Shown here in pieces: positions 9,310-22,388 of a DNA stretch of 64,000 bases. The stretch covers positions 62,001 through 126,000 of the forward strand of contig JABSOZ010000013.1 in NCBI GenBank assembly GCA_013215295.1, given 5' to 3'. Origin of the DNA: Colwellia sp. Its GTDB lineage: Bacteria > Pseudomonadota > Gammaproteobacteria > Enterobacterales > Alteromonadaceae. How positions within the stretch are numbered: position 1 is the first letter of the stretch; every line of letters begins with the position of its first letter. The notes below the pieces were generated by a model. It did not search any database and was not told the origin of the DNA. It worked only from the letters and a program-made list of their open reading frames with translations. The translations under genes were made by a program, and so were the position numbers.

Positions 9310-9954
9310 CTAAGATTGTTTCTTAAATCGACGAGATGCTAATCCCATTATACCTAGTGCAAAAATTGCAAGTGTTGAAGGTTCTGGTACTGTACTAGTT
9401 GGACCGGTTGTGTTGTAACTTATGTTGTCTGTATACATGGTGGTTGCGCTACCACTATTACTACTCCAGCTGACAGAATTAAACGCTATATCGGATATAA
9501 CACCAAAGAAATTATACTCTTGTCCTCCTGCGTGCTCCATTAAAAACTGCTCGCCACTACTTAACGTAAATGTAACAGTATCAGGGTGGTGGACCCCAAA
9601 ATCGAGTCCAAATGTTTTGATAGCCTCTGAGAACCTGATAGTGTGGCCCGCGCCTGATCCTAGTAAGAAATCCGAACCTAAAGTGTGCCAGGGGTTATTA
9701 ACAGCTAACAGATTTTCATAATCACCATGATATTGGTAATCAAAAGTCGGTGTGATGACTGCATTGCCTTCGACGTAGTTGGTGTTATAGTTCCAAGAAT
9801 CCGTCCCATTATCCTCAAAATCGATCGTTGTAAGTACATCCGTTACCGCTTCGAAACTCGCTCGGTCAGAGAATTCAATCAAACCAGCATTAGCAAAGCC
9901 ACTCACCGATAAAACTAATCCAGCTACAGCGCTTTTTATATATTTTACTTTCAT
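9310..9954 (-). CDS. PEP-CTERM sorted exported protein
   Basis: 214 aa from the ATG at 9954, chosen because AAAGGGTGAG precedes it and a signal peptide (AVAGLVLSVSGFANA) starts there; the frame is open further upstream without a good start. The mature part is beta-rich (IDFEDNG...WNYNTNYVEG, TFGLDFGVHHPDTVTFTL). The C-terminus is a classic PEP-CTERM signal: VPEPST, a hydrophobic helix (LAIFALGIMGLA) and a basic tail SRRFKKQS. Such proteins are processed by an exosortase and end up on the surface or in the exopolysaccharide matrix. No exosortase is visible in this window. It has its own terminator at 9191-9222. Confidence 0.85.
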   Translation of the reverse strand: MKVKYIKSAVAGLVLSVSGFANAGLIEFSDRASFEAVTDVLTTIDFEDNGTDSWNYNTNYVEGNAVITPTFDYQYHGDYENLLAVNNPWHTLGSDFLLGSGAGHTIRFSEAIKTFGLDFGVHHPDTVTFTLSSGEQFLMEHAGGQEYNFFGVISDIAFNSVSWSSNSGSATTMYTDNISYNTTGPTSTVPEPSTLAIFALGIMGLASRRFKKQS

Positions 9955-10868
9955 GTACTCACCCTTTAATCCATTGCCATTAGAAATGAATAAGTTATTG
10001 GTATTATTAATATTATTCAACGAGCGGTGGATGCATAAAACACACCAGCTCAAAATAACGCTTACTTTTCATGTAGTTCAAATCTCGTCCAATCATTTGG
10101 TGTTCACAAGTGTAAAAAAAACTGACACTGATTGATGAGTATATATATGATTTTGTTATGGTTTAATTATAAATATGTGGTAAATGAAGTGTTTGATATA
10201 AATTAACTACTAAGAGCAGTGTTTATATAGGTATGAAATAGAGCGTGATAAAGAAGTTAGCACCCAAACGGCAAACGTATTAGGCAATTATTTAGCTTTA
10301 ACCAACGACCGCTTCTCAGCTCTAAGCAGACCTTAATATTTTCAAAGTATTACGTCAACTAAGCGCACAGAGAAGTCAGTTCAAGTTTCCTATATTGCCC
10401 ACTACTAATGATCACTCATGCCACTAAGTGAGCCTTATTCATCAACGTTTGAGCGGCTGTTGATCACCGGTCTTCGCCTAAACTCTGATCCGCTCAGCAG
10501 ATACTCGCCGCACAGAAGTCAACAAACAGGCTCCAGCAAAATTAACTTGTTCGCAATTTTTCCTCCAAAAAATCCGGCAACCATTCGGCACACCGGCAAT
10601 CGACGCCTTTCCATACATAGCTAGGACTATGGCGACGAAAGGTGTGAATCGGCACGGCTTTTTTCCGTCAGGAGCGATGGTTGGAAACGAAATTTAGGTC
10701 AAATAAATCATAAAAATCGAAGTATCTGTTAACACCCTCTAGTGATACTTGTCGCTTACGCTATGAATTAGATAATATATATTCCATTACCCGATATGCT
10801 TTTTAGTTGTACATTCATTTGAATTAGTTAAACTCGGTCTAACAATCATACTGAAATGAGGAATAACA
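9955..10868. other. Long non-coding stretch with repeat copy 5
   Basis: 914 nt. It holds repeat copy 5 (10363-10426) and, at about 10590-10660, a locally GC-richer piece with CGCCTTTCC and GGAAAGG-type complementary segments around a CTATG...CATAG pairing, possibly the remains of a terminator or insertion. A 68-aa frame at 10418-10624 begins inside the repeat and is not called. The sequence just upstream of 10869 should hold the promoter of the next gene. Confidence 0.45.
10363..10426. repeat. Dispersed accessory-region repeat, copy 5 (most complete)
   Basis: gcgcacagagaagtcagttc, then aagtttcctatattgcccac, then tactaatgatcactcatgcc. It combines the 5' block shared with copies 2 to 4 and the 3' block shared with copies 1, 2, 4 and 6, so it is the best reference copy. 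A weaker echo (gccgcacagaagtcaac) follows at about 10509. Confidence 0.75.
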
Positions 10869-13662: not shown

Positions 13663-14373
13663 TTAAATTTGAAATCGTCTGCGTTTCTTAAATGATTCAA
13701 GATGCCTTTGCTTAGTCTCTTTACGTTTAACGAACCATTCTGCAATAGGGCTATAAGCGGTATAGTCCATTATTAAAATCTTGCTGATAGAATCATCACT
13801 AAAGCCCGTTAATATGGATATTTCAGTTGTACTCATACCTTGTCGATAAGAATCAATAACACACGTTCTAACCAGTGATAAGCGTCTTATTCCACAATCC
13901 CACAAATCCGCATTTTTAATAAACTGATCAAGCAATTTATTCATAGCATTAGGGCTAGTTTTTTCGCCTCTGTTTTGCACTGTGAACGGTTTTAAATCAT
14001 CATTAACAAATAGTGGGGAATTAGGGTTTAACCCTAAGTAATGCTTGTTTGGCATTGTATTAATGCCTGATTCAATAAGCCATTTAATATATTGTTCAAA
14101 TGCTGCCTTAACTTCTTCGTGAGAAAGTACAATAGGCCGCTCGGTGCCACTTCTGGTTATTGAGTCGGGTAATACAACAAATTCATTAAATTCACCCGTT
14201 GGTGATATGAATAAATCTATTGTGATCAAGGTTAACTCTATCTCTCTTAAACCAAGTACTCCCGCAAACAAAAGCAATAGCTTGTTTCTATGTTTTAAGT
14301 CTGAATTTCTGCCACAGTTTCTACTTATAAGCAGTTCGTAAAACTCATTATCAACTAAAGGTCTACCATCCAT
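13663..14373 (-). CDS. Small tyrosine recombinase, catalytic domain only
   Basis: About 236 aa from ATG 14373 (239 aa if the TTG at 14382 is used). No N-terminal core-binding or arm-binding domain is present, and an in-frame stop lies just upstream. The catalytic fold is recognisable: LLLLFAGVLGLREIEL carries the box I Arg, and CGIRRLSLVRTC corresponds to the HxLRH region of box II, with Cys or Gly where the His is usual. TGFSDDSISKIL and MDYTAYSP match the GHxxxxxT...Y region, with two candidate nucleophilic tyrosines. It belongs to the phage-integrase superfamily, but activity is uncertain because of the missing His. The ribosome site is weak. Next to it lies the duplicated non-coding element at 14443-16240. 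Confidence 0.7.
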   Translation of the reverse strand: MDGRPLVDNEFYELLISRNCGRNSDLKHRNKLLLLFAGVLGLREIELTLITIDLFISPTGEFNEFVVLPDSITRSGTERPIVLSHEEVKAAFEQYIKWLIESGINTMPNKHYLGLNPNSPLFVNDDLKPFTVQNRGEKTSPNAMNKLLDQFIKNADLWDCGIRRLSLVRTCVIDSYRQGMSTTEISILTGFSDDSISKILIMDYTAYSPIAEWFVKRKETKQRHLESFKKRRRFQI

Positions 14374-14442
14374 AAAGCGCAATTCTAGTTATACATTTGC
14401 GTTCATAGTGTCAGTTAATTAATTTTATGACAAGGGATTTAA

Positions 14443-15397
14443 TAAAAAGGCCACTGAATAAGCGGCCTGTAGGTATGCAATATAGGAAACGTGCTAAAGG
14501 CAAACATAAAAAAACCACCCGAAGGTGGCCTTATTTACCTTACATTATCCAAAATTGGATGATGTAAAATATGCTTGGTATTTTGATTTTGATTTTTATG
14601 TTAATCAATAGCATATATTTCCCCTTTTACTTCAAAACGTAAAGATAAGAAGTAATCGAAAGAAGACGATTCAATAGAATTTTTATTGAATCAGCACCCC
14701 TAAAAATATATAGTGGCTTTGCAAACCTATGTCATCTTCCGAATTACTTCGGCTTGTGCTGACTACGAACCCTTGGATATCTCGACAATATTTGAGGGTT
14801 TTTTCTTGCCTGAAAATCAGCCTAACTCCCTTACTAACTACAGTGTGAGGATGTTTTATGTTTTTTGCAACAGTTAGTTACCGCCCGTATTCATTAACTT
14901 TCTTGAGTGGGAAAGGTAAGTTAGTAGCTACTAACTTAGTGGTGCTTTTTAATTTTGATTGTACAAAAACGCAACGCTTTTTTTTAATTGATTTTCAAGC
15001 CATTAAAATTTTAAAAAAACTGTATAATTTTTAGGGGCTTGCACGTAAAAAAATCAATATGCAGTTAAAACAACATCTTATCACTTTATGAACAGGTTGA
15101 TTACTAAACAATCAATTAAAAACAAGTCGGTTTGATAGGCTTTTTTCGTACGTTAAGGTGCTTTGTTAGTTGTAAACCCGAAACAACCAAACTTTTGAGC
15201 GGTTGAATATATTACTTAATATTACCGGTGAAATACTCTTTAAAAAAATTAATGAGGGGTCAATCTTAGGCAAGTAAAAGTGGTACGAAAACTGCCTTGT
15301 TTGGCAACGCCATTTATCGTATTCCAAAATATAATGTTAAATCCAAAAATGCAGAGCTTTTTTTTGCGTAATATTGAAATAAGTCACAGGTAATAAA
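14443..15397. repeat. Duplicated non-coding element, unit 1
   Basis: The unit begins with a hairpin (AGGCC...GGCCT, about 14444-14467), then ggaaacgtgctaaa (14485-14498) and a second hairpin CCACCCGAAGGTGG. The 211-nt core follows (14623-14833), then a variable part with the palindrome AAGTTAGTAGCTACTAACTT and TTTTGATTGTACAAAAACGC, and a long diverged tail (GAACAGGTTGATTACTAAA, CGTACGTTAAG, AAATACTCTTTAAAAAAATTAA). All these blocks recur in unit 2 at a constant offset of 956 to 960 nt. There is no ORF with coding character. Confidence 0.85.
14623..14951 (+). ncRNA. Putative structured RNA, copy 1
   Basis: The first 211 nt (14623-14833) are identical in both units while the flanks have diverged. 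On the plus strand a hairpin (14668-14676 with 14684-14692, 9 bp) stands first. Two long-range pairings, gaagtaat 14649-14656 with attacttc 14743-14750, and tcagcac 14691-14697 with gtgctga 14756-14762, would interleave as an H-type pseudoknot. A palindromic hairpin and T-run near 14915-14951 could terminate it. This is inference from reading by eye; strand and ends are uncertain. Confidence 0.35.
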
Positions 15398-16240
15398 AAA
15401 CCGACTGCAGAGAGTCGGTTTTTAGGAAGGTTGTGGGGTGGGAAACGTGCTAAACGCAAACATAAAAAAAACCACCCGAAGGTGGCCTTATTTACATTAC
15501 ATTATCCAAAACTGAATGATGTAAAATATGCTTGGTATTTTGATTTTGATTTTTACATCAATGGTCAGCATAAATATTTCCTTTTACTTCAAAACGTAAA
15601 GATAAGAAGTAATCGAAAGAAGACGATTCAATAGAATTTTTATTGAATCAGCACCCCTAAAAATATATAGTGGCTTTGCAAACCTATGTCATCTTCCGAA
15701 TTACTTCGGCTTGTGCTGACTACGAACCCTTGGATATCTCGACAATATTTGAGGGTTTTTTCTTGCCTGAAAATCAGCCTAACTCCCTTAGTGATTACAG
15801 TTTGCTGCGGTTTGATGGTTTTTGCAAGTGATAAAAAACGACTGTTTTTAATAACTTTCTTGAGTGGAAAAGATAAGTTAGTGACAACTAACTAAGTGAT
15901 GCTTTTTAATTTTGATTGTACAAAAACGCAACGCTTTTTTTTAATTAATTTTCGTCTCAAAAATATTTCAAAATAAATTTTTTAAATTTTACACTCTATT
16001 TGTAAGCTAAACGTTAATATTCAATAAAAACAATACTTTGTTGTTTTACGAACAGGACGATTACTAAATGAACGATAATAGCTATCCTACTGTTTTGTAC
16101 GTTAAGCTAGAAGAAGGTTGTAGGGTAAACACTCAATTTAAGTTTATATTCTTACGATAACTGCTGTAGATTTTATACTCTGAGGCCTATTTAGTTTGTA
16201 AAATACTCTTTCAAAAAATTAAGCAATAATCTGAGTTTTA
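15398..16240. repeat. Duplicated non-coding element, unit 2
   Basis: It opens with hairpin AAACCGACT (15398-15406) / AGTCGGTTT (15413-15421), then ggaaacgtgctaaa at 15441, the hairpin CCACCCGAAGGTGG, the identical core at 15580-15790 and the tail blocks GAACAGGACGATTACTAAA, TGTACGTTAAG and AAATACTCTTTCAAAAAATTAA. The tail is shorter than in unit 1. The start hairpin differs in sequence from that of unit 1 but occupies the same place. Confidence 0.85.
15580..15909 (+). ncRNA. Putative structured RNA, copy 2
   Basis: Same 211-nt core as copy 1 without a single difference (15580-15790). Downstream, the terminator-like stem is kept with a changed loop (AGTTAGT-GACA-ACTAACT here, AGTTAGT-AGCT-ACTAACT in copy 1), followed by GCTTTTTAATTTT. 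A 69-codon frame at 15686-15895 crosses the core, but its copy 1 counterpart stops after about 40 codons, which argues against a protein. Confidence 0.35.
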
Positions 16241-16273
16241 TGGAGTTACCCAGGCATGAACGGCGGTGACAAG

Positions 16274-17938: not shown

Positions 17939-18020
17939 TCAGAGAAGTAGGAAATGTGTTAAAGAATGATCAGGGGTGCGCACCCCTCAATATTAAACAT
18001 ACATTTAATATTAATTTAAC

Positions 18021-18044
18021 TATAATGACTGTATTTATGTACAG
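18021..18044 (+). promoter_or_regulatory. -10 box and LexA (SOS) box of umuD
   Basis: CTGTATTTATGTACAG at 18029-18044 is a perfect CTGT-N8-ACAG LexA site. TATAAT at 18021-18026 directly precedes it, so LexA would cover the transcription start. The umuD start codon follows 11 nt after the box. Confidence 0.85.
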
Positions 18045-18054
18045 GTGTTTTATT

Positions 18055-18465
18055 ATGAAAATCATCCCAATTTTTGCCAGTTGTGGCATAACAGGTTTCG
18101 AATCTCCTGCAGCAGAATATAAAGAGATGGGTTTATCATTAGATCAGTTGTTGATATCGCACCCGAACGCTACATTCATCGGAAAAGCTTCAGGTGACTC
18201 AATGCAAGGTGTTGGCATTTTTGACGGTGATTTGCTTCTAGTGGATAGAGCCGAAACATTTTGTAGTGGAGATGTGATCATTGCTAATTTTAATGGTGAG
18301 TTTATTTGTAAGATATTTAATAAAAATAAACGAGAGCTTTTATCAGCAAATAAAAATAATGCACCAATAAAAATAAAGGAAGAAGATCACATTCAAGTTG
18401 AGGGTGTTGTTACTCGCAGTATTCGAATGCACAAACCATCACCAGAACTACTAAATAACCTATAA
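18055..18465 (+). CDS. umuD: UmuD-like S24 serine peptidase, orphan
   Basis: 136 aa from ATG 18055, which lies just behind the LexA box; the open frame further upstream crosses the promoter and is not coding. The self-cleavage site Cys10-Gly11 (ASCGITGFESPAAEY), the nucleophile Ser49 (GDSMQGVGIFDGD) and Lys86 (ICKIF) are all present, and Ser and Lys are 37 residues apart as in E. coli UmuD (60/97). In E. coli UmuD' joins UmuC as DNA polymerase V. Here no umuC follows: the next sequence is the repeat-rich junction. It may serve another UmuC in trans or be a relic of a mobile element that carried SOS genes. Confidence 0.88.
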   Translation: MKIIPIFASCGITGFESPAAEYKEMGLSLDQLLISHPNATFIGKASGDSMQGVGIFDGDLLLVDRAETFCSGDVIIANFNGEFICKIFNKNKRELLSANKNNAPIKIKEEDHIQVEGVVTRSIRMHKPSPELLNNL

Positions 18466-20382: not shown

Positions 20383-20904
20383 CTATTTAATATTAAACTC
20401 TAAGAAAGGCGTTTTACAGAAAAGCGGAAATGTGGTTAAGTTATCTTCTTCAAAATTAAAACTATTTTTCTTTAACTGAAGTTGATAATTACCTTGGGTA
20501 AATACGTAAACCAAAGATAAATTTAGCGTTATAGATGATATTTCATTTGCTGATAGAGATAAATAATCTTCAATTTGTGGTTGTAGGCGTTTCACCATCG
20601 GACCTTGGTAGTTTAATTGCTCCCCTGTATCGCTATTCGTAATAATAAATAAATCTGAAAAAAAACCTTCAAATGGTGTATACCAGATTAATAATCTCAT
20701 ATTTTTATCGTAAGGATTTTGAAGGCTAAAGTTGAGACTTACTTGGTCTGTTGAAAGTAGTGTCGAATTAATAGACATTGAACAATACTGTATGGGTAGT
20801 TCCATATTTGCTAAAGCCTTATGTGAGGTTATCGAGCTATAAGAAATGAATAAGACTAGAGGGATAAAGGTTTTTTTTATCCATAAATAGTGGATTGAAA
20901 ACAT
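20383..20904 (-). CDS. Exported paralogue of the N-terminal domain of the neighbouring M35 protease
   Basis: 173 aa with a signal peptide (TFIPLVLFISYSSITSHKALA). The mature part aligns by eye with residues 25-130 of the protein encoded at 20992-22065: VSLNFSLQN with NVNATLNITN, LLIWYTPFEG with ILGWYTDLNE, LNYQGPMVKRLQPQIEDYL with VDFFGPHYKRQAPTDKDFI, and NYQLQLKK with NYEVSYDV. It lacks the catalytic domain. In M35-type proteases this N-terminal domain resembles a propeptide, so the gene could encode an inhibitor, a chaperone or a remnant of duplication. AAGGTC precedes the ATG. It lies 87 nt downstream of the protease gene, same strand. Confidence 0.75.
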   Translation of the reverse strand: MFSIHYLWIKKTFIPLVLFISYSSITSHKALANMELPIQYCSMSINSTLLSTDQVSLNFSLQNPYDKNMRLLIWYTPFEGFFSDLFIITNSDTGEQLNYQGPMVKRLQPQIEDYLSLSANEISSITLNLSLVYVFTQGNYQLQLKKNSFNFEEDNLTTFPLFCKTPFLEFNIK

Positions 20905-20991: not shown

Positions 20992-22065
20992 TTAATTTTG
21001 GTTCGGCGTATTTTCAGCAAAGTATTCATGACTGTCAGCATTATTTAGTGCTTGATCAGGGTTTGATGTTGCTAAACTTTGTGCACCAGATTGGCCATAA
21101 ACTACATCGTCAGTACCGGCAACGGCATTAAAATGACTTAGTTCATGAACAATAGTACCAGCGCGAGAATCAGTACCTAGCTCGTTAGCATTCCAAAAAG
21201 CACGACAAAGGTAAACTTTGTAAGGTTGTGTTGGATATACGTAAGCAAAGTAAGATTTTTTACAGCTACAATCAAAAGTAACCGGCTGGTTATCAATAGC
21301 ATCATTGATAGCATCAAAGTGATCTACGGCTGTGTTGTAACGAGCTGATGTTGCATCACCAAACCAAGTATTGTAACGAGCCGAAGTATTATTGGCTGCA
21401 TGACTACTTAAGTAAGATACTGAGTTGTTGGTTATTTGATCCGCTGCAGCAAGTGCACTAATTATTTCTGTTTTTTGGCCGTTATCACAACGCCCAGTAA
21501 AACAAGTACCACCGATGCAATCACCAGCACCACCGCCACCGCCTGGTTTACCTTTATTAGCCGAACCTTTTGATTCAATACCATCAAGCCAGATAACAGA
21601 AACAGCTGATGACAATTGTTCAACAGCTAATCTTTCTGTTTTTTTCTGCTGACCTTTATTGCTGTATAAGTGCATTGATTTTACATCGTAACTTACTTCA
21701 TAGTTACCGGTTGTGCTCATATCGTATAACGCTGAAAGTTCAAATGTTTTTGTTAACGATTGACCAGACTTTAATTTGATAAAATCTTTATCTGTAGGAG
21801 CTTGACGTTTGTAATGAGGGCCGAAAAAATCAACCTCAACACCATCTTTTTTAACACTAAAAATATGTTCTTCATTTAGATCTGTATACCAGCCTAATAT
21901 CTTTTGTTGGCCGTTGCCATTATTGGTAATGTTTAATGTTGCATTAACATTACCATTATCCGCTTTAGCTACAGAAACTTGGACATCTAATTGAGCCTTT
22001 GCTGCATTCGCTTGCAAGGAAATGATTGCTGTAATAGCTATCATTAATTTTACTAAGTGTTTCAT
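20992..22065 (-). CDS. Secreted M35 (aspzincin) metalloendopeptidase
   Basis: 357 aa from ATG 22065, preceded by AGAAGG; the signal peptide is LMIAITAIISLQANA. Residues ~25-140 form the beta-rich N-terminal domain of deuterolysin-like proteases. The catalytic domain carries HELSH (307-311) and the third ligand Asp in GTDD (319-320), the aspzincin signature of family M35 (peptidyl-Lys metalloendopeptidases and related enzymes). Cysteines in CIGGTCFTGRC and CSCKK probably make disulfides. A Gly-rich linker (KPGGGGGAGDC) separates the domains. It should act outside the cell in protein degradation. A paralogue of its N-terminal domain follows. Confidence 0.88.
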   Translation of the reverse strand: MKHLVKLMIAITAIISLQANAAKAQLDVQVSVAKADNGNVNATLNITNNGNGQQKILGWYTDLNEEHIFSVKKDGVEVDFFGPHYKRQAPTDKDFIKLKSGQSLTKTFELSALYDMSTTGNYEVSYDVKSMHLYSNKGQQKKTERLAVEQLSSAVSVIWLDGIESKGSANKGKPGGGGGAGDCIGGTCFTGRCDNGQKTEIISALAAADQITNNSVSYLSSHAANNTSARYNTWFGDATSARYNTAVDHFDAINDAIDNQPVTFDCSCKKSYFAYVYPTQPYKVYLCRAFWNANELGTDSRAGTIVHELSHFNAVAGTDDVVYGQSGAQSLATSNPDQALNNADSHEYFAENTPNQN

Positions 22066-22388
22066 AGATATGTACCTTCTTGTTATTAATAATTTACAGT
22101 ACAACCAATCGTATTACTTCACGCTAAGTTGATGATAATACTTTGATTCTTTATTCGTTGAAGTCATAGCAAAATAGCGGCAATTTTTATTAAAAAAACG
22201 ACAAAAGGAGGACAGATAGGTTCTGTTTTAGAATTTTAAGCAAGATAAAGAGGGTTGTTATAAATATTTTTGGAAAATATTATCTGAAACTAGAGTTATG
22301 AGTTTTTTATATGACAAGTTTGTGGAGTTAATAACAAATTGTTTTTATAAGTGAAGGTAAATTATTTAGGTTATATTGAAAAATAAGA

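Follow-up and report, generated by a model that had tools for sequence, protein, structure and literature searches.

The zor/orz system of E. coli is organised as two tandem, highly similar pairs, in which a very short toxin of 29 aa is preceded by a leader that represses its translation (PMC11264685). In Helicobacter pylori, aapA/IsoA systems are present in several copies per chromosome and combine a short toxin gene and an antisense RNA that overlaps it in cis over the translation start region; pairings within the leader lie near the Shine-Dalgarno (SD) sequence, and aapA is locked by a 5′–3′ long-distance interaction and activated by 3′ processing (PMC6733600). In tisB/istR the toxin promoter is tied to a genome-maintenance regulator by a LexA site (PMC11264685). 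With these systems, as presented in the portions of the two articles drawn on here, we compared a repeat locus of Colwellia sp.

The window, that is, the whole 64,000-nt stretch of DNA analysed (contig JABSOZ010000013.1, positions 62,001 to 126,000; G000:C5:62001-126000), belongs to a genome (G000) of 5.77 Mb in 52 contigs. Its sequence holds two adjacent units, named w1 (window unit 1) and w2 (window unit 2), with a small ORF under selection, a structured leader and terminator, a flank derived from nrdA and a signal of gene conversion (Table 1). We regard it as probable that a small module resembling type I toxin-antitoxin systems is present here twice, in tandem. On the minus strand, an nrdA-copied promoter region would be followed by a structured leader of ~220 nt, a Shine-Dalgarno sequence, a 24-codon gene for a hydrophobic, mostly cationic peptide, and a terminator. 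The plus strand would give rise to an RNA of ~185 nt that stops at its own intrinsic terminator. This RNA would cover most of the leader in the complementary sense, roughly as far as the ribosome-binding site, and pair with the peptide mRNA, leading to a block of translation or to decay. If the antisense RNA were lost or outnumbered, the peptide would be made and would probably act on the membrane. Transcription of both strands, repression and toxicity are what we infer from the sequence.

Table 1. Features assigned to the two repeat units of the window (positions are those of the window).
Unit	Feature	Position	Strand	Basis
1	predicted 5′ leader of ORF mRNA	14615..14835	-	start inferred from nrdA-type promoter position
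2	predicted 5′ leader of ORF mRNA	15572..15792	-	start inferred from nrdA-type promoter position
1	probable antisense RNA opposite ORF leader	14622..14808	+	model R1 match; 5′ end unmapped
2	probable antisense RNA opposite ORF leader	15579..15765	+	model R1 match; 5′ end unmapped
1	plus-strand RNA terminator hairpin and T-run	14767..14804	+	terminator scan, alignment covariation
2	plus-strand RNA terminator hairpin and T-run	15724..15761	+	terminator scan, alignment covariation
1	small ORF, 24 codons and stop, MLLINIKIKIKIPSIFYIIQFWIM, putative toxin	14540..14614	-	ORF comparison, selection, profile
2	small ORF, 24 codons and stop, MLTIDVKIKIKIPSIFYIIQFWIM, putative toxin	15497..15571	-	ORF comparison, selection, profile
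1	Shine-Dalgarno-like AAGGGG	14621..14626	-	position counted from sequence context
2	Shine-Dalgarno-like AAGGAA	15578..15583	-	position counted from sequence context
1	predicted terminator of ORF transcript	14511..14532	-	terminator scan
2	predicted terminator of ORF transcript	15468..15489	-	terminator scan
1	copy of nrdA upstream region, 76% to own genome's nrdA locus; -10 lost	14850..15108		sequence comparison
1	short match to 3′ end of nrdA-adjacent gene	15224..15252		29 nt, 90%
2	copy of nrdA upstream region, 87% to own genome's nrdA locus; -10 lost	15806..16247		sequence comparison

A preliminary description of this DNA had reported a tandem, gene-free element of ~957 bp with an identical 211-nt core. 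The repeat itself was confirmed, with an offset of 957 and diverged flanks. A repeat search within the window aligned 14508-14807 with 15465-15764 (300 nt, 95% identity, spacing 957), and other repeat blocks of the two units were spaced by 949-970. The cores at 14623-14833 and 15580-15790 differ at 0 of 211 positions, the flank upstream (14508-14622) is changed relative to its unit 2 counterpart at 14 of 115 positions, and the flank downstream (14834-15020) at 40 of 187. The units are not gene-free, as the minus strand has a 24-codon ORF where the upstream flank lies; it was absent from the first ORF list, which had a floor of 60 aa. Nor can the invariance of the core be taken as a sign of constraint, for 16-33% of it is changed between the pairs of genomes compared: w1 and the G025 copy have 33/207 differences in the core and 31/115 upstream, and w1 and the G003 copy 67/209 and 32/115. 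Scaling the upstream divergence of the two window units by three such comparisons gave 15.2, 18.8 and 27.8 expected core differences, and the Poisson probability of zero is 2.5e-7 to 8e-13. Because none was seen where 15-28 were expected, gene conversion between the two tandem units accounts best for the exact core identity of w1 and w2. An identical island within diverged tandem repeats can thus reflect gene conversion and not constraint.

No further copy of the module was found in the home genome at the sensitivity of the DNA search and the peptide profile used. In all, the module was represented by nine copies in seven genomes of three Colwellia-type genera. Among 395 genomes of the family, a DNA search matched seven, of which five were real (G000, G025, G003, G206 and G258); the matches in G263 and G275, only 26 and 29 nt long, were dropped as chance. 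A covariance model (R1) built from six copies recognised 4 of the 39 genomes of the genus of G258, with G395 and G400 being new, and, under stricter filters, 5 of 395 genomes of the family and, among 345 of the order, solely the window's own. The loop motif also occurred in three named contigs, two of Colwellia and one of an uncultured Alteromonadaceae. A peptide profile searched against 295 genomes of the order retrieved the own genome and ten weak matches (E 0.0096-0.09), which could be chance or distant relatives. The pattern of the ORF end was present in 20 of 395 genomes, namely five with the module, four that were inspected and 11 of one other genus. Among the four inspected, only G368 was related: an ORF-end remnant (L050 124-166; profile E 0.006) lies beside the 3′ end of ubiG and without a core, and is likely a scar left by a module since lost. 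Two loop patterns and one ORF-end pattern had no match in viral contigs, where a peptide-end pattern hit five stretches that by eye were in other frames and a search for related loci gave 48 pattern matches with none confirmed. Phage records contained no peptide match, and the DNA matches to phage and plasmid records were only short ones at the A-rich terminator, close to the start of the query.

The settings of the copies vary. Two settings that are common for type I modules are represented, with a prophage copy in G025 and tandem copies in the window and in G206. In G025 the copy adjoins the gene of an S24 peptidase and is part of a P2-like prophage with the domains GPA, Ogr/Delta, portal, terminase and GPO. 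In G258 and G395 the copies lie between nrdA and ubiG (gene names by eye), where the 3′ end of ubiG recurs in decayed form towards nrdA, and the copies of G003, G206 and G400 occupy other settings than these. The window, too, has an S24 (UmuD/LexA-like) peptidase gene at 17956-18465 on the plus strand, of which 18018-18450 is 82% identical to the gene adjoining the module in the G025 prophage. Given this similarity, the region of the window may be prophage-derived, although S24 gene and module follow one another in a different order than in G025. Elsewhere in the window, the minus-strand ORF at 9310-10053 has a VPEPSTLAIFALGIMGLASRR-type tail, presumably a PEP-CTERM sorting signal (by eye). 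Two adjacent minus-strand ORFs at 20383-20904 and 20992-22104 share by eye a similar N-terminal domain (WYTP..., ...GPxxKR); we take the latter to be a secreted metallopeptidase by its looks, and the former could be a stand-alone propeptide-like partner.

The minus-strand ORF, which is 24-26 codons long and has an SD-like motif closely 5′ of its ATG, is intact in eight of the nine copies, and all eight peptides end in FW[IM]M-stop; in the ninth copy (G206a) the frame is open at its end and has no in-frame start codon. Pooled over the eight intact ORFs, pS was 0.79 and pN 0.20 (pN/pS 0.26), indicative of purifying selection. Third codon positions were the most variable (15, 6 and 21 of 29 codon columns vary at positions 1, 2 and 3), and when the columns of the 21 gapless codons were shuffled 400 times, 399 of the results contained an in-frame stop. 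The peptides are hydrophobic (GRAVY 0.84-1.42), below the 60 aa used for the short hydrophobic peptides of type I toxin-antitoxin systems, and seven of eight carry a charge of +1 to +3 (G400, -1). In the window, the ORF of each unit would encode a tiny, probably membrane-acting protein. A hairpin with a T-run follows the ORF stop in both window copies (terminator scan) and, by eye, in five more; the G025 hairpin is imperfect, and none is evident in G206a. No curated family model placed the peptide in a named type I toxin family: three peptides had no NCBIfam match at E 1 and four had no Pfam match at E 5, queries so short that a missing match carries little weight, and two peptides compared with PHROG gave one match at E 0.25.

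As judged from the alignment and folds, the core is likely the leader of this ORF on the minus strand and an antisense RNA on the plus strand. None of 200 dinucleotide shuffles folded as well as the core on either strand (z -4.82 for plus, -3.03 for minus). For single copies (60 shuffles each), z was at most -2.2 on the plus strand in 9/9, with the G400 stretch cut too long at 268 nt, and at most -2.25 on the minus strand in 8/9, with -1.29 for G003. In the conserved structure, 91.1% of 305 cells from nine distinct rows were paired in an alignment that was fitted to the covariance model and so leans toward the structure; none of 500 shuffles reached it on four of five measures, and 55 of 500 did on the fifth. 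Collection of homologues with a covariation test, as the preliminary description had proposed, gave covariation mostly in the terminator: two-sided changes occur in 8 of 34 pairs, and seven of the eight belong to the plus-strand terminator helix. Two elements drawn in that description fared less well. The H-type pseudoknot (UCAGCAC/GUGCUGA) forms 7/7 pairs only in w1 and w2 and 3-6 of 7 in the other seven copies, which is not above shuffles, and the 9-bp hairpin has 9/9 pairs only in the two window copies. No Rfam family reached its gathering cut-off in the repeat region, the only such matches in the window being tRNAs; the best sub-threshold match in the region was Phe_leader (31.3 of 55 bits), over the minus-strand terminator.

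Wobble pairs, counted by hand from the alignment, bear on the strand that is constrained. The terminator helix has 14 G-T vs. 2 A-C, which fits a plus-strand RNA, and at least five T follow it in 9/9 rows. The main stem (15 pairs, one with a two-sided change and eight departing only by unpaired cells) has 1 G-T vs. 9 A-C, which fits a minus-strand RNA. We read the terminator helix as constrained in a plus RNA and the main stem in a minus RNA, a reading made from few events. The two inner helices, with 9 G-T (seven from one pair) vs. 1 A-C, do not fit simply, and wobble direction is not uniform. Main-stem wobbles of this kind, the conservation of both ORF and leader, and plus-strand sigma-70 promoter scores that were not above shuffles in the nine copies (13 to 169 of 200 scored as high) would all agree with a small membrane-peptide gene with a structured 5′ leader that is self-regulating. 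In that case no antisense RNA would be made, and the hairpin of the plus strand would be only a 5′-terminal stem of the mRNA. We consider this unlikely, as the T-run in every row and the terminator wobbles fit a plus transcript. In modelled full-length mRNAs of eight copies, the SD was unpaired with values of 0.11-0.89. For w1 and w2 the models gave a long stem when full-length and an SD-side hairpin when 5′-truncated, and for G003, G206b, G395 and G400 the SD-side hairpin in both states. As the SD-region pairings differ among copies, a two-state SD switch was rejected and no common switch is claimed. Likewise set aside was a hairpin immediately 5′ of the SD, in which 90.3% of 62 cells were paired but covariation was not beyond shuffles. 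Several observations weigh against the type I reading: the promoter scores of the plus strand, the scant covariation of the main stem, the mixed wobble direction, the SD models that vary between copies, the negative charge of the G400 peptide, and the loss of the nrdA -10 from w1, w2 and G206a.

The fold and terminator of the plus strand would also suit a structured RNA acting in trans, with the minus-strand ORF incidental; we hold this very improbable, since such an RNA alone leaves unexplained the codon-level conservation of the minus strand (the pN/pS given above and an SD in 8/9 copies). An attachment or recombination site for the neighbouring tyrosine recombinase, as proposed before, is the least credible alternative: the tandem copies, their varied contexts and the integrase-like ORF at 13663-14382 (minus strand; weak phage integrase family match, PHROG 216, E 1.6e-5; none in Pfam) speak for it, but the palindrome-like TTACATTATCC..., discarded as recombination site or operator, is coding and constitutes the last ORF codons (...FWIM stop), no integrase-like ORF is seen by eye beside the other copies listed (two contigs end close by), and the covariation is of an RNA-terminator type. 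The function at the nucleic-acid level suggested earlier is supported by a stem and terminator kept in nine copies, but the gene-free RNA element has given way to a peptide gene with leader and probable antisense RNA. A conserved frame with synonymous changes had been set against an RNA role; such a frame was found, on the opposite strand beside the core, and the RNA function stands.

For the toxin-antitoxin-like module, the source of the promoter region could be traced. The unit 2 alignment to the nrdA upstream region spans 444 nt and includes ~75 bp from the 3′ end of the neighbour gene, which at the native nrdA locus we take to be of LysR type (by eye). All 11 native nrdA regions examined contain TTGCA[AT]-17-TATCTT, the region counted for G258 and G395 being the copy adjoining nrdA. 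Facing the ORF, this nrdA-type promoter is exact in four of the nine copies (G025, G003, G395 and G206b) and altered in two (G258 and G400), and the -10 is lost in three (w1, w2 and G206a). With both window copies lacking the nrdA -10, they may be weakly expressed or depend on another promoter. NrdR boxes are described as 16-bp palindromes, bound as pairs at a spacing of 14-17 or 24-27 bp (PMC12051234), and in P. aeruginosa promoters NrdR box 1 overlaps the -10 (PMC4409342). By eye, the native nrdA loci resemble these NrdR-controlled promoters, as far as the sections of the two articles used here describe them, with one box over the -10 and a second ~16 bp on. In the module copies, by contrast, the first box region is kept and the second is gone at that spacing (by eye), so paired NrdR binding would not be expected.

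We asked which genome each promoter arm came from by means of a tree of eight module arms and 11 native nrdA regions (G400 had no native region in the set). Arms cluster with the region of their own genome in w1+w2 (support 0.983), G025 (0.977), G003 (0.988), G395 (0.995), G258 (0.951) and G206b (0.893). This is expected for G258 and G395, both of which sit at nrdA itself, and the G206 arm, when compared over more of its length, scores higher against G258 (564 and 487 bits) than against the locus of its own genome (418 bits); clear ectopic own-genome arms are those of the window, G025 and G003. The module tree conflicts for G395: the arm there belongs to its own genome, but the module is placed with G003 and the genus of the window (support 0.997 for the larger group). 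This conflict suggests recombination that reassorts module and arm, as well as movement of the module from genus to genus. Unit length equals module plus arm (957 bp in the window, ~1029 bp in G258), which fits gain or loss of units by recombination between the flanking repeats.

Tentatively, these observations may be extended to a mobile type I toxin-antitoxin family that parks repeatedly behind the nrdA promoter of its host. The promoter and the 3′ end of the neighbour gene (up to ~640 bp) would then serve as a homology arm, with which the module would integrate at nrdA as a tandem duplication (cf. G258 and G395). The arm would be homogenised with the resident promoter, and recombination of repeats would free module-plus-arm units of ~1 kb to go elsewhere, including the P2-like prophage of G025. 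Toxin output would track dNTP synthesis and, with the second box gone, escape full NrdR repression.

Literature searches on type I toxin-antitoxin systems with nrdA, NrdR or Colwellia, and on new type I families and type I databases, returned no such system in the titles and abstract openings of the matches listed. If true, the proposed reading would add a toxin-antitoxin family missed by ordinary annotation, the ORF being too short and the RNA belonging to no family, and a module whose promoter is that of an essential host gene and is renewed through recombination. It would also couple a peptide toxin to deoxynucleotide supply and offer a concrete route for very small modules between chromosome and phage.

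Compared with the systems introduced above, the putative Colwellia module would be like tisB/istR in having a toxin promoter tied to genome maintenance; unlike there, the tie is to the promoter of nrdA, in which one half-site region resembling an NrdR box is kept and other sequence stands in place of the second (by eye). With aapA/IsoA it would share the short toxin gene, the antisense RNA over the start region, the multiple chromosomal copies and leader pairings near the SD, but no consistent lock is seen across its copies. With zor/orz it would share the tandem pairs, the very short toxin and the translation-repressing leader; no sequence relation was detected, and unlike in zor/orz the putative antisense RNA is placed entirely opposite the leader, and nrdA is the source of the promoter region. 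By analogy, the tandem zor/orz and the aapA/IsoA systems appear nearest in layout.
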